A stretch of DNA of 64,000 nucleotides from Mariprofundus ferrooxydans PV-1 (GTDB taxonomy: Bacteria > Pseudomonadota > Zetaproteobacteria > Mariprofundales > Mariprofundaceae): positions 155,828 to 219,827 of the forward strand of contig NZ_DS022295.1 of the NCBI RefSeq assembly GCF_000153765.1, read 5' to 3'. Of the stretch, positions 24,791 to 29,957 are shown one piece after another. The notes below the pieces were generated by a model. That model was given only the letters and a program-made list of their open reading frames with translations, had not been told where the DNA came from and did no database searches. The translations under genes and the position numbers were made by a program. The stretch's first letter is position 1, and each line of letters begins with the position of its first letter.

Positions 24791-24990
24791 TGTCATTCTC
24801 CAGAATAGTCGTGTTTATATCGTATAAACAGGAAGAGGGATACATGGCCTGGGTTATGGCAGATCTCCCCTTATCGGGTGATTGTACACCTTTTGAACGT
24901 GGTGGAAAACCGCTCAGGTGCAATGAACCTTCACGGGAAAGGTGTGCCTGCAGGTTCAGGCAGTGTGTACTCCTGTCAAATCCATAATAA

Positions 24991-25018
24991 TTGACGAAAC
25001 TGTCATAACTATCATAAT
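24991..25018 (+). promoter_or_regulatory. Sigma-70 promoter of the signalling operon
   Basis: TTGACG (24991-24996), 16-bp spacer, CATAAT (25013-25018), within an AT-rich stretch carrying repeated GTCATAAC/TATCATAAT strings. It lies 24 bases before the first gene of the four-gene operon. Confidence 0.6.
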
Positions 25019-25041
25019 CCGTGATTGGCACGGAGGGTGCG

Positions 25042-25668
25042 TTGAATCTCATTACCACAGGCAAAGCGGCACGCATCTGCGGCGTCGGTCTTAATACGAT
25101 CAAGAGCTGGATCAGGAGCGGCCATATTCGGGGAATTCAGTTGCCCAGTGGCCATTGGCGCATACCGGCTGTGGAGCTGGACCGCTTTCTTGCCACAGCA
25201 GAATTTAATTCAGGTGCAAAGAACAGGAAGCCACTGCAATCGGTTGATAGCAATGGAGAACGCCCGCGTGTGCTGGTGGTTGATGATGACCCTCAGATGC
25301 ATGTGTTTATCGAAGATGCATGCGGGGTTGGTGGCATGGATGCCGAATTTGTCTTCTCCTCCGATGGTTATGCCGGTTTGATCGAGATCGGGCGCTTCAA
25401 ACCTCACCTGTTGGTGCTGGATATCATGATGCCGGAAATCAACGGATTGGAGCTGATTCAGCGAATTAAAAAAGATGTGGAACTGGCCCGATCCATGCCC
25501 GTTCTGGTGATCACAGGGGCTCAGAATCGCAGGCTGGTCATGCACAGGCTGGAGCAGGCAGGGCCGGATGCTATTCTGCACAAGCCGGTGGCAGCCCCTG
25601 TGCTGATTGAAACGATGCGCAGCCTGCTTGAGCAGTGCGGCAGCAAAGGGGCTGCACATGCCGGATGA
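25042..25668 (+). CDS. HTH-REC protein: DNA-binding domain followed by response-regulator receiver
   Basis: 208 residues. The N-terminal part (about 1-55) is a MerR/excisionase-type winged helix-turn-helix: ITTGKAARICGVGLNTIKSW, then SGHWRIPAVELDRFL. A linker leads to a CheY-like receiver (about 75-200) with VVDDDP and phospho-acceptor Asp127 in LVLDIMMPE. The receiver Lys is in LHKPVA. This domain order is the reverse of most response regulators. TTG 25042 is chosen because GGAGGG lies 4 bases upstream and the protein then begins directly at the HTH; GTG 25021 is the alternative. It is the first gene of a tightly overlapping operon with two further receivers and a hybrid kinase. Confidence 0.85.
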   Translation: MNLITTGKAARICGVGLNTIKSWIRSGHIRGIQLPSGHWRIPAVELDRFLATAEFNSGAKNRKPLQSVDSNGERPRVLVVDDDPQMHVFIEDACGVGGMDAEFVFSSDGYAGLIEIGRFKPHLLVLDIMMPEINGLELIQRIKKDVELARSMPVLVITGAQNRRLVMHRLEQAGPDAILHKPVAAPVLIETMRSLLEQCGSKGAAHAG

Positions 25669-26056
25669 AACCAGACGGCAACGTGTTCTCGTGGTTGATG
25701 ACGACCCGGTGCAGTTGGAATATTATATGGCGGTACTCGAATCCGATTATGATGTCATGACGGCGCACAGTATCAACGATGCCATCGAGATGCTGCGTCG
25801 TGGTACTCCGGTGGATGCACTTGCCAGCGATATGTATCTGGGGCGGGGGAGAAGTGGCATCGATTTGCTGGCGTGGGTAGGAGAGCACCAGCCCGATTTG
25901 ATAACCCGCTTCGTCATTATCAGTGGCAATCCCGTTGTCGATACAGGCGCATATTCGGTGAGAGTAATCATGAAACCGGTAGACCCGGGTGAATTGCTAC
26001 AGTCTGTGAGCATGTTGTTGGAACAGGGCCCCGAACAAACGATTACAGCGGGATGA
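25658..26056 (+). CDS. Single-domain response regulator (CheY-like)
   Basis: 132 residues, almost only a receiver domain. The acidic pocket is VVDDDP (Asp14-16), the phospho-acceptor is Asp58 in LASDMYLG, and the Lys is in IMKPVD. No output domain is present. ATG 25658 has AAGGGG at good spacing and overlaps the previous gene by 11 bases; the next gene overlaps its stop by 4 bases. It probably receives or relays phosphate from the hybrid kinase of the same operon. Confidence 0.88.
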   Translation: MPDETRRQRVLVVDDDPVQLEYYMAVLESDYDVMTAHSINDAIEMLRRGTPVDALASDMYLGRGRSGIDLLAWVGEHQPDLITRFVIISGNPVVDTGAYSVRVIMKPVDPGELLQSVSMLLEQGPEQTITAG

Positions 26057-29000
26057 GCAATATGGGATTCAGTAGTATTAGCGTAAGGACATCACTGGTT
26101 GTGGGGGGGCTGGCAGCATCGATGCTGTTCTTCTGCTGGCTCTGGCTGGATAAGGTCAGTGTTTCGCTGACCGATCAGGGCGAACGGGAGCGCGCACTGA
26201 CGACGGCCAAGTCGCTGGAAGCCAGTCTCAGAAGCATCATGCTCACCGGCAATGCACCTATAGCGCATGACTGGATTAAGCGGGTATCAAAATTGCCCGA
26301 TGTCTCCAGCGTACGCATCTACAGAACTGACGGCGTAGAAGCCTTTGTCGACCAGAAAACACTCTCGGCAGTGAACGGCTGGCTGGGGGAGGCGCATTTT
26401 GCCATGCGTCCGGTAGAGCGGGCTCCGGCACAGGTGCCGGATAAGCTGGCGAAAGTGTTTAAATCCGTCGCCGATTCGGAGACGCCCTGGTTGCGCAAGG
26501 ATGAGAGTGGGCACATGATGCTGTTTTACCCGATCCGGGTAGAGAGTGCCTGTCTGCACTGCCATGGCTACGATAAACATATTAATCGTGGCGTGCTGTC
26601 GCTATCGATCTCCACAGATCAGGCTGCCTCAATGCTTACATCGCTGAAAGAGCAGGCGCTGATGATCTTTTTTGCCATGACCCTGTTGTTGATCGTGGCT
26701 GTATGGCTCTATTCACAGCGCACCATTCTCTCTCCCATTACCCGTTTTGCTGAAACAGCTCGCCGTATCGGCGCAGGGGATCGTTTGCAGCGTTTTGACC
26801 GCTCCCGCAATGATGAACTGGGAGAGTTGGCAGCATGTTCGAACTCTTTGCTTGAACAGCTGGAAGAGGAGATCAAGGCTGAACAGCAGTTATTGGTGCG
26901 TCAGCAGGGGCTGGTGGATGCGACAATCAGCCTCTCGTCCGAGAACATATCAAACGATGTACTGAGACGGGTTGGCGAATTGGCCATGCAGATGACGGGT
27001 GCGAAATACGCCATGCTCGGCCACCTGGATGAAGAGGGGAACAAGCAGTTCATCGCCTTGGGGATGGATGCTGAAGATGAGGCGAAAATCAATCATGCAC
27101 CTGAGGGTAAGGGCTTGCTCGGTCTGCTCTGGGATGAAGGTGAAGCGGTGCGTACCGATGATATCAACGGTCATCCTGCCAGTTCCGGTTTTCCGGCCGG
27201 ACATCCGCCAATGAAGCATTTCCTGGGTACTCCGATCAGGTTTGGTGATCGGGTGATCGGGGCGCTTTATCTCACGGATCGGGGCGATGGACAACCGTTC
27301 AGCGAAGCGGATCAGACTATTGTGCAGGCGCTCTCGGCGGCCTGCGCCGTTGCGCTGGCTAATGCGCAGGCCATGGAGCAGCTCAGGCGGTTCAATGATG
27401 AGCTGGAATCACAGGTGAGTGAGAGAACCAGTGAACTGCAATCCTCCAATGCCCGGTTGCGAGCCCGCGAGGTGGAACTGGAGATTATCAATGAGGAGCT
27501 GGTTCAGGCCAGCGAGGCGAAAAACCAGTTTCTGGCCAATACCAGCCACGAGTTGCGTACGCCGCTCAATGCGATTATCGGGTTTTCGGAGTTGATGGGT
27601 AATCCACGCATGGGGCCTCTCAATAGCAAACAGCATCGATATGTCGAAAATATTCATTCCAGCGGCAAGCGGTTGCTGAAAATCATCAACGACCTGCTGG
27701 ATATCAGCCGTATTGAAGCAGGCATGATGGTAGTGGAGGAGCAGGTGTTTCCGCCCCGTGAAGTGGCAAATCAGGTGATGGCGGAAATGACATCGCTGGC
27801 CAGCCTGAAGGGACTGAAACTGACAATGGACGCCTGTCCCGACGAGGGCCAGTTAATTCGTACCGATCGCGGCAAACTGCACCAGATGATGGTGAATCTG
27901 GTTGGTAATGCGATCAAATTTACGCCGGAGGGAGGGAGTGTCACCCTGTCGATGGAGATCAATGTGGTCAGTGCGCGTCAAAGAGAGCTGGTCGTGCATG
28001 TGAAGGATAACGGTATTGGCATTCCAGCGGCGGATTTGGAAAAGATATTCGAGCCGTTTGTGCAGGTGCATGGCGGCCTTGCCCGTGCTTATGAAGGGAC
28101 AGGTCTGGGCCTTGCACTGACGCGCAGGCAGGTTCGGATGCTTGGTGGCGATGTAAGCGGCGAAAGCCGCGAGGGTGATGGTAGTACATTCATCATCAGG
28201 TTGCCGTTTGATACCGTCGTTGTTGACTCGGATGGAAGGGCTGCAGTTGATGATGATGTGCAAGCCGGGGTGGATGCTTCGTATCATACAATTTCGGACG
28301 AAGTAGATGAAGTGGATGAAGTTATCCCGAGTCACGGCCCGCGTCCGCGCATTATTATTATTGATGAGCAGGATGCCCGTGGCGTTACTGTGGCTCGCTC
28401 GCTGGAAGCTGAAGGCTGGTATGAAACAGTTGTCTGTAGCAACGTGGCGGATGGCATTCAGGCTGCTGCCAGCGCATTTCCGTTTCTGATTATGTTGGGT
28501 CTGTCTGCAGATGGAGAGCTGACTCATCGTAATCTGCAGGACATTAAAAGCTGCCGGCCGATTCATGATACGCCGGTAATTCTGGTCGGCGGTACGGACG
28601 ATACTCCTGAATACTCGATGGGAGAGGTAGGCGTGATCGCCAAGGGGATGTCGCAGCATCAAATGGTCGATGTCATTAGCCGTTATGGTCGCATGGTGCC
28701 GGTTCGTCAGGCTTTGCCGACTGTGTTGGTTATTGACGATGATGCTTCTGTGCGTGAGCTGCTAAAGGAGATGCTGGTACAGGGTGGCTACCGTACCCTG
28801 CTCGCGGCAAATGGTGAGGAGGGCATCCACAAGGCGATTGAACGGGAGCCGGACCTGATTATTCTGGATTTGATGATGCCGGGGATGAGCGGTTTTGATG
28901 TTATGACCAGCCTGCGCAAAAATCCGGCTGTCGCGGATATCCCTGTATTGATATTCACGGCCAAGGACCTGAGTCGCGAGGAGATCCTGCAACTGGGTCA

Positions 29001-29595
29001 CCAGGCAGATCGCGTGCTGCTCAAGGGCGACTCCAATCAGAAGGAGATCATGCGCCACTTGCAGCGGCTGGAGTTGCTCTATCCGGTGCAGGCGCATCTG
29101 ATTGATACGACACTGGGCTGCTTTAATCAGCGTTATATGCGCCGCAGACTGGCTCAGGAAGTTGCCAACGGCTTGCGTCATCAGCGTGTATTCTCACTGC
29201 TGGGCTGGGAGATGGATGGTTATGAAGCCTATGCCAAAGAACATGGGGAACGGTGGGCTGTAGCAGCGTTGAAGGAGATGGCCGAGACGGTGAAAGCCCT
29301 GATCCGGCATGGCGATGTGTTTGCCCGCATATCTGAAAACCGGTTTGAGATATTTTTGCCTGCTGTCATGCCAAGCGGGGCTGCGCGTGTGGCTGAGAAG
29401 TTGCGGCTGCGCATACAGCATCAGCGTTTTCCGCTACCGCAGGGGGCGGTGGCCGGCTTTACCGCCTCATTCGGGGTAGTGCACTTTCCGCTGGACGGTG
29501 AGGATTCGGAGCGGTTAATGAAACTGTTGCAGTCCCGCATTGATGAAGCCTGTCAGAGTGGCGGTAACCACTGTATATTGGGAGATTCGATATGA
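26053..29595 (+). CDS. Hybrid sensor histidine kinase with periplasmic haem-c motif
   Basis: 1180 residues. Membrane helix 1 is at about 13-32, a periplasmic sensor at about 33-200, and helix 2 at about 202-221. The sensor carries CLHCH (Cys167, Cys170, His171), the c-type haem attachment motif. HAMP (about 222-275), a GAF-like domain (about 285-440) and a coiled segment follow. The HisKA domain has His499 in NTSHELRTPLN, and the ATPase domain carries VGNAIKF and GTGLGLAL. A degenerate receiver (about 765-880) lacks a clear phospho-acceptor. A complete receiver has Asp939 in LILDLMMPG. The C-terminal GGDEF-like domain (about 1020-1175) has SENRFEIF where GGDEF should be, so it is unlikely to make c-di-GMP. 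Redox or gas sensing is inferred from the haem motif. Confidence 0.85.
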   Translation: MSNMGFSSISVRTSLVVGGLAASMLFFCWLWLDKVSVSLTDQGERERALTTAKSLEASLRSIMLTGNAPIAHDWIKRVSKLPDVSSVRIYRTDGVEAFVDQKTLSAVNGWLGEAHFAMRPVERAPAQVPDKLAKVFKSVADSETPWLRKDESGHMMLFYPIRVESACLHCHGYDKHINRGVLSLSISTDQAASMLTSLKEQALMIFFAMTLLLIVAVWLYSQRTILSPITRFAETARRIGAGDRLQRFDRSRNDELGELAACSNSLLEQLEEEIKAEQQLLVRQQGLVDATISLSSENISNDVLRRVGELAMQMTGAKYAMLGHLDEEGNKQFIALGMDAEDEAKINHAPEGKGLLGLLWDEGEAVRTDDINGHPASSGFPAGHPPMKHFLGTPIRFGDRVIGALYLTDRGDGQPFSEADQTIVQALSAACAVALANAQAMEQLRRFNDELESQVSERTSELQSSNARLRAREVELEIINEELVQASEAKNQFLANTSHELRTPLNAIIGFSELMGNPRMGPLNSKQHRYVENIHSSGKRLLKIINDLLDISRIEAGMMVVEEQVFPPREVANQVMAEMTSLASLKGLKLTMDACPDEGQLIRTDRGKLHQMMVNLVGNAIKFTPEGGSVTLSMEINVVSARQRELVVHVKDNGIGIPAADLEKIFEPFVQVHGGLARAYEGTGLGLALTRRQVRMLGGDVSGESREGDGSTFIIRLPFDTVVVDSDGRAAVDDDVQAGVDASYHTISDEVDEVDEVIPSHGPRPRIIIIDEQDARGVTVARSLEAEGWYETVVCSNVADGIQAAASAFPFLIMLGLSADGELTHRNLQDIKSCRPIHDTPVILVGGTDDTPEYSMGEVGVIAKGMSQHQMVDVISRYGRMVPVRQALPTVLVIDDDASVRELLKEMLVQGGYRTLLAANGEEGIHKAIEREPDLIILDLMMPGMSGFDVMTSLRKNPAVADIPVLIFTAKDLSREEILQLGHQADRVLLKGDSNQKEIMRHLQRLELLYPVQAHLIDTTLGCFNQRYMRRRLAQEVANGLRHQRVFSLLGWEMDGYEAYAKEHGERWAVAALKEMAETVKALIRHGDVFARISENRFEIFLPAVMPSGAARVAEKLRLRIQHQRFPLPQGAVAGFTASFGVVHFPLDGEDSERLMKLLQSRIDEACQSGGNHCILGDSI

Positions 29596-29957
29596 GTCGC
29601 ATATTGATTGTTGATGATAATGCGCTGAATCTGGAGTTGGCCCGGGATATACTGGAGCTCGATGGTTTCGAGGTGGAAACTGCCTCTGCCGGCGATGAGG
29701 GGGTGGCGATGGTTCGCAGAAACCCGCCGGACCTGGTATTGATGGATTTGCGCATGCCCGGAATCAGTGGCCTGGAAGCACTGGCGATTCTGCGCAAGGA
29801 TGGTTTCGATGACCTGCCCGTGGTTGTGCTGACGGCATCGGTGATGAAGGGGGAAAAGGAGCGCTTGCTTGATATGGGCTTCAACGGATTTTTACAGAAA
29901 CCGATTGATGCAGCCTCGTTTTCTGACGAGGTCTCATCCTTTCTAAGGAAGCGTTGA
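29592..29957 (+). CDS. Single-domain response regulator (CheY-like)
   Basis: 121 residues forming one receiver domain. ILIVDDN lies at the N-terminus, Asp52 in LVLMDLRMPG is the phospho-acceptor, and the Lys is in LQKPID. The ATG at 29592 overlaps the hybrid-kinase stop by 4 bases. As the last gene of the operon it is the likely soluble target of the kinase or part of a phosphorelay. No strong terminator follows; only a short ATTGGC/GCCAAT hairpin without T-run lies in the 46-bp gap to tolA. Confidence 0.9.
   Translation: MSRILIVDDNALNLELARDILELDGFEVETASAGDEGVAMVRRNPPDLVLMDLRMPGISGLEALAILRKDGFDDLPVVVLTASVMKGEKERLLDMGFNGFLQKPIDAASFSDEVSSFLRKR

Follow-up and report, generated by a model that had tools for sequence, protein, structure and literature searches.

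What does the four-gene operon at positions 25042-29957 sense, and what does it act upon? It lies in the window, the 64,000-nucleotide stretch of the 2.99 Mb genome of Mariprofundus ferrooxydans PV-1 that we analysed, and the original prediction described it as a phosphorelay around a haem-c hybrid kinase. Open reading frame coordinates bore out the four genes on the + strand (A, B, C, and D) with the claimed successive overlaps of 11, 4, and 4 bp. The proposed single transcription unit held as well: one promoter-like site precedes A, and a search of the operon found no terminator-like site between genes A to D. The unit is composed as follows:

24991-25018, + strand: promoter, sigma-70-like TTGACG-16-CATAAT (10/12), directly ahead of gene A
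25042-25668, + strand: gene A, response regulator with an N-terminal HTH_17 domain (BldC/excisionase-type), then a C-terminal receiver with intact phosphorylation residues
25658-26056, + strand: gene B, single-domain receiver (Pfam Response_reg)
26053-29595, + strand: gene C, membrane hybrid kinase of 1180 aa, predicted haem-c Cache sensor-HAMP-GAF-HisKA-HATPase-pseudo-receiver-receiver-degenerate GGDEF with an inhibition-site motif
29592-29957, + strand: gene D, a lone receiver domain whose phosphorylation residues are intact; the most conserved of the small partners

Gene A starts with a TTG codon, with GGAGGG ahead of it at 25032-25037, and matches Pfam HTH_17 (42 bits) followed by Response_reg. 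All of the three additional receiver proteins originally listed beside the kinase do have receivers, but A is a DNA-binding response regulator. Gene B retains the phospho-Asp and Lys across all aligned relatives. In gene C, two hydrophobic segments (~aa 9-33 and 197-223, by hydropathy) flank the sensor, and Pfam places HAMP at aa 223-260, GAF at 301-435, HisKA at 489-557, and HATPase at 605-720. The tail is made of a degenerate receiver 1 (~764-880), receiver 2 (891-999), and the GGDEF domain (1018-1172). HisKA and HATPase_c are intact, and phosphorylation residues are present in A, B, D, and receiver 2, while receiver 1 lacks the Asp.

Strong relatives of gene A were found in 19/78 genomes of the class Zetaproteobacteria, and the genome-neighbourhood search that had been suggested for the four-gene order recovered A-B-C-D in further species and genera of the class. 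The same gene order recurring with an invariant CxxCH makes this a real cassette, a conserved signalling unit of iron-oxidising marine bacteria. Nine complete A-B-C-D loci carry a CxxCH sensor (the window, L049, L050, L051, L052, L053, L054, L171, and L172), and three more haem-type cassettes are truncated at contig ends (L058, L061, and L170; L061 breaks off ahead of the motif). A-C-D with CxxCH occurs in L174, and L055, L056, and L057 have only C-D. In L059 and L060 the order A-B-C-D is kept, but C begins just ahead of GAF and is sensorless; L175 has A-C-D without a sensor, and in L173, of layout A-receiver-C-receiver, a dCache domain replaces the haem sensor. The kinase tree places L059 and L060 inside the haem group (branches 96/92 and 100/100), so that loss of the sensor in that pair is the simplest account, and the sensor labels require three changes in total. 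From the sensorless and dCache cassettes we conclude that the input module is swappable.

A single in-frame stop within GAF breaks the kinase frame of L052 (7185-10694; G019), either a draft-assembly error or a decaying gene. No conserved neighbour genes were found around the cassette: Tol and Ruv genes adjoin it in the PV-1 genome, and argininosuccinate lyase, thiolase, or NirB-like reductase in others. Because neighbours vary between genomes, context gives no functional link. The NirB-like gene (L054:112-2571, G022), for a nitrite/sulphite reductase, is oriented divergently beside the cassette and adjoins it in no other locus seen. Scanning genome contigs with gene A returned only ~30% identical Desulfobacterota relatives and plain receivers, and the kinases near them differ in layout. 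The PV-1 genome also holds a paralogous receiver-GAF/kinase/receivers/GGDEF-receiver cluster that lacks both a haem sensor and an HTH regulator (L064:3503-7307; C3:389502-393306).

The sensor of C is extracytoplasmic, between two membrane helices with HAMP after them, and two features in it bear on haem binding:

26551-26565, + strand: haem-c motif CLHCH, aa 167-171 of C
26239-26241, + strand: Met63 of C, invariant, predicted distal haem ligand, aligning with Met60 of GSU0582

Loss of CxxCH from orthologues had been named beforehand as evidence against a haem-c sensor; the motif is present in 11/11 aligned sensors and in the complete haem-type cassettes, in support of that assignment. The 11 sensors share CxxCHGY, the invariant Met (M63; alignment column 35), an RG pair, likewise invariant, behind the haem motif, and other invariant columns. 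Assigning the domain to a family was less direct. The window protein scores 19.9 bits against Tll0287-like (PF11845), below the cut-off of 24.1, which counts against the assignment and leads us to file it as a divergent relative of Tll0287/DUF3365 and not as a Pfam-level member. Its orthologue from G016 passes at 26.1 bits, Tll0287-like is matched by 11/11 sensors (best 7.9e-6), and the class-40H chemoreceptor sensor family by 7/11. Aligned with hhalign to Pfam-positive Tll0287 domains of related genomes, the sensor profile gave a probability of 95.7 (E 1e-8). A PDB profile search returned 5b82 (Tll0287, E 0.012), 3b47 (GSU0582), and 3b42 (GSU0935) with marginal E values (0.012-0.62), and Foldseek of a weak single-sequence model (pLDDT 54) had the WalK Cache among its leading matches, along with GSU0935 and GSU0582, both in the top 7. 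These profile comparisons relate the sensor, as a diverged form, to the Tll0287/DUF3365 (sCache_heme) family. No relatives of it turned up in the viral contigs searched.

In the profile alignment the invariant Met falls opposite M26 of 3b47, which is residue 60 when counted from the axial His143 (PMC8396549). Cys167 and Cys170 of CLHCH are the sole cysteines in the periplasmic part of C; Cys/His ligation of the Tll0287 type, which takes an axial Cys, is thereby excluded. A cytochrome-c assembly protein is encoded in the PV-1 genome. Three more Tll0287-like haem domains over the Pfam cut-off occur there (C3:616764, C3:862186, and C4:1466321), one of them within a 199-aa frame, possibly a protein on its own.

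Which signal might such a haem report? A 2026 preprint named the family sCache_heme and assigned NO sensing to its signalling members; a HAMP-linked member releases NO slowly and forms no stable oxygen complex (PMC12889525). By analogy with it, oxygen sensing by C is unlikely, so that of the redox, oxygen, or NO input first envisaged the redox/NO type stays plausible. The preprint also qualifies the view that this is not a described system: no description of the four-gene operon was found in the literature searched, but the sensor family has one. In the Geobacter sensors GSU0582/0935, the distal ligand Met60 is let go when the haem is oxidised, or gives way to CO and NO (PMC8396549). A dedicated NO sensor, as proposed for signalling sCache_heme domains, is a possible but not a probable reading of C, and one compatible with the explanation we favour. 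The behaviour of the HAMP-linked member speaks for it, as do the missing axial Cys of Tll0287 and the binding of NO by the GSU sensors too (PMC8396549), but the invariant Met corresponds to the redox-switching ligand of GSU0935 (PMC8396549). Moreover, the PV-1 genome lacks NirS and NirK by profile (top NirK score 68.9 bits vs a cut-off of 296.3). A denitrification link through NirK/NirS co-occurrence gave a negative result, with NirK passing its cut-off in just one haem-cassette genome (G046). There is consequently no tie to self-made NO, and we keep both redox and NO as candidate signals.

On the output side, the promoter of the operon is covered by a repeat:

24989-25015, + strand: 9-bp direct-repeat array AATTGACGA-AACTGTCAT-AACTATCAT, predicted operator of gene A, overlapping the -35 and -10 elements

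At 25016-25024 follows a fourth and weaker unit, AATCCGTGA. In 17 cassettes, the region upstream of A has a mean best 18-base self-match of 12.35 at lag 9, vs 8.32 in shuffles (z = 11.5). A further 16 homologues, four Desulfobacterota-type loci of ~30% identity among them, show the signal at lag 9 alone (z = 7.2), although both values overstate the independent evidence because the sequences are related. Lags 6-8 and 10-15 upstream of A stay between z = -2.2 and 2.4. At least 12 matches at lag 9 were seen in 12/17 gene A upstreams vs 5.6% of control upstream regions (other ORFs of the same loci). The 9-base period is retained across homologues while the sequence of the unit changes, the array of L070 for instance reading AACCATAAT-AACCATAAT-AACTATAAT. 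Such 9-bp direct repeats also stand at the promoters of Desulfobacterota-type genes for HTH_17 response regulators (L070, L071, and L073); this type of operator thus extends beyond the cassette.

Such a period has a precedent: a BldC protomer binds one 9-bp direct repeat, AATTXXXX(C), and its Arg30 reads the last C (PMC5859096). The HTH of A aligned with BldC structures 6ama/6amk at E 0.27-0.31. Against the BldC subfamily model it scores 18.8 bits, below the cut-off of 77, and we therefore do not file A as a BldC, only as probably working alike. At the position of Arg30, homologues with Arg have repeats ending in TCC in 8/9 cases, and those with Ser, Asn, or another residue in 0/14 (Fisher p = 1.8e-5, a post hoc comparison of related sequences). 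The arrays of L174 and L175 are weak, and L174 has the Arg yet not the expected operator. From the array and its covariation with the recognition helix, A probably switches its own operon by binding the repeats over the promoter, and the position of the array suggests either default repression or MerR-like remodelling. In the PV-1 genome, the two-unit operator pattern has one exact match, at the gene A promoter, and two weaker matches that we checked both lie inside ORFs, so no further target was identified. In G058, G002, and G016 the class pattern likewise matches exactly only once per genome, always upstream of A.

The tail of the kinase departs from the architecture first given for it. Receiver 1 is too degenerate for Pfam but can be aligned with paralogues: its phospho-Asp is Gly across the cassette kinases, and the Asp is kept in the paralogue L064 and the dCache-type L173. 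By this substitution it is a pseudo-receiver. In receiver 2, active-site residues are intact in every cassette kinase possessing that domain. The predicted GGDEF remnant is indeed degenerate, but it retains a c-di-GMP inhibition-site motif:

29305-29316, + strand: RHGD, aa 1085-1088 of C, inhibition-site motif RxxD, 5 residues before the degenerate active site SENRF

R1085, D1088, and R1092 are found in 15/15 kinases though the GGDEF signature is lost in all of them, and the residues around R1085 and D1088 vary. Both align with RKSD of 6zxm, where 6zxb/6zxc read AKSA. The domain resembles PleD moderately (E 1.6e-6). By PleD numbering, Lys seems to replace the secondary-site Arg for c-di-GMP in C, and this weakens the case for binding. 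On balance, the conserved motif makes the domain probably a c-di-GMP binder, inactive as a cyclase. A sensor of the same kind as that of C occurs elsewhere in the PV-1 genome (L063:4151-6259; C3:366150-368258), where CMGCH, HAMP, and PAS precede an intact GGDEF (RDADTVARIGGDEF). This protein is a probable haem-controlled diguanylate cyclase and could supply the c-di-GMP site of C.

Could the GGDEF domain instead be a structural remnant that binds nothing, with the 9-bp repeats belonging to the promoter independently of A? No relative retains the active site, the secondary Arg is apparently replaced, and structural reasons could preserve RxxD. We nevertheless find this unlikely: R1085 and D1088 are invariant amid varying neighbours, and the repeats appear at one lag only, also in 30% identical relatives and with differing sequences, while their sequence tracks the residue of the recognition helix.

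Less likely still is the true multistep phosphorelay of the original prediction, from His499 of C through receiver 2 and an HPt encoded elsewhere to A, B, and D: receiver 2 does have its complete set of active-site residues and four HPt domains exist in the PV-1 genome, but all four lie within other large proteins and none stands alone, Pfam found no HPt in the operon or in the cassette kinases examined, receiver 1 is without the usual phosphorylation, and the kinase SgmT, whose RHPD site binds c-di-GMP though its active site is dead, phosphorylates DigR directly and not its own receiver (PMC3509222). By analogy with SgmT-DigR, direct transfer from kinase to regulator is the likelier route.

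We thus favour, as probable, a two-component module that regulates itself and whose sensor can be exchanged, with haem-c and c-di-GMP inputs and a BldC-like output on 9-bp repeats. The predicted periplasmic Cache domain would carry one covalent c-type haem with His171 as proximal and Met63 probably as distal ligand; oxidation of the haem, or binding of NO, would free Met63 and cause a conformational change that reaches the kinase core by way of TM2, HAMP, and GAF. The kinase would then phosphorylate the receivers made with it, A as the output, B and D each as a competitor, sink, or branch. Receiver 2 would probably be a regulator or sink in cis, and receiver 1 a docking pseudo-receiver. The GGDEF domain would make no c-di-GMP and would probably bind it, as a second input tuning or placing the kinase. 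Through its BldC-like HTH, A would oligomerise head to tail along the repeats and so coat the operon promoter, and the state of its receiver would therefore set the level of the whole operon. Of this scheme, the sequence itself shows the gene order, its conservation, which residues are kept or lost, and the repeat array with its covariation; haem attachment, the ligands, the phosphotransfer partners, binding of c-di-GMP and DNA, and the direction of autoregulation are inferences.

We found in the literature no described binding mode for response regulators with an N-terminal HTH_17, and the array gives them a concrete predicted operator. More tentatively, Zetaproteobacteria and Desulfobacterota may share an undescribed response-regulator class in which the receiver controls a BldC-like head-to-tail filament on 9-bp repeats. 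Kinase activity would there set the filament length over the regulator's own promoter, the kinase of the cassette integrating periplasmic haem-c and cytoplasmic c-di-GMP. Iron oxidisers inhabit steep oxygen and iron gradients, and could by means of the favoured module connect periplasmic redox or NO state with the c-di-GMP-governed choice between attached and motile life. The swappable sensor would also offer a natural chassis to compare inputs.

The cassette is thus real, conserved, and modular, built from known parts with an unexpected operator, and it would join three things known separately: haem-c sensing in the periplasm, a kinase that is probably a c-di-GMP receptor, and a phosphorylation-controlled BldC-like regulator. 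For the first, the closest systems are sCache_heme/Tll0287, GSU0582, and GSU0935, which share with C a periplasmic sensor domain (in C a predicted single Cache-like one), CxxCH with a proximal His, and linkage to HAMP (PMC12889525, PMC8396549). GSU0582 has Met60 where C has the invariant Met63, and both are without the Tll0287-type axial Cys. Unlike GSU0582 and GSU0935, C has a longer stretch from the Met to CxxCH, falls below the Pfam cut-off, and drives a hybrid kinase in its own operon instead of a chemoreceptor.

For the second, SgmT-DigR of Myxococcus xanthus has the same GAF-kinase-receiver-GGDEF series, with a dead active site and the inhibition site kept (RHPD, RHGD in C), and pairs the kinase with a DNA-binding response regulator (PMC3509222). 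SgmT is, however, cytoplasmic, encoded by an orphan gene, and has one receiver, whereas the cassette has a transmembrane haem sensor, an added pseudo-receiver, and two more receiver proteins; DigR carries an Xre-type domain at its C-terminus, in contrast to the N-terminal HTH_17 of A. Receiver, receiver, and GGDEF in series also recall PopA/PleD-type proteins, and in PopA, too, the active site has degenerated while the inhibition site is kept (as told in PMC3509222), but in C this run sits behind a histidine kinase.

For the third, BldC is a winged helix of HTH_17 type that binds sites of 9-bp direct repeats varying in number (PMC5859096). It is a protein of 68 residues without a receiver, whereas in A the HTH is joined to a receiver at the C-terminus and scores below the cut-off of the BldC subfamily. 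The pairing of Arg with C at the end of the repeat is nonetheless apparently preserved in the Arg-type homologues of A.
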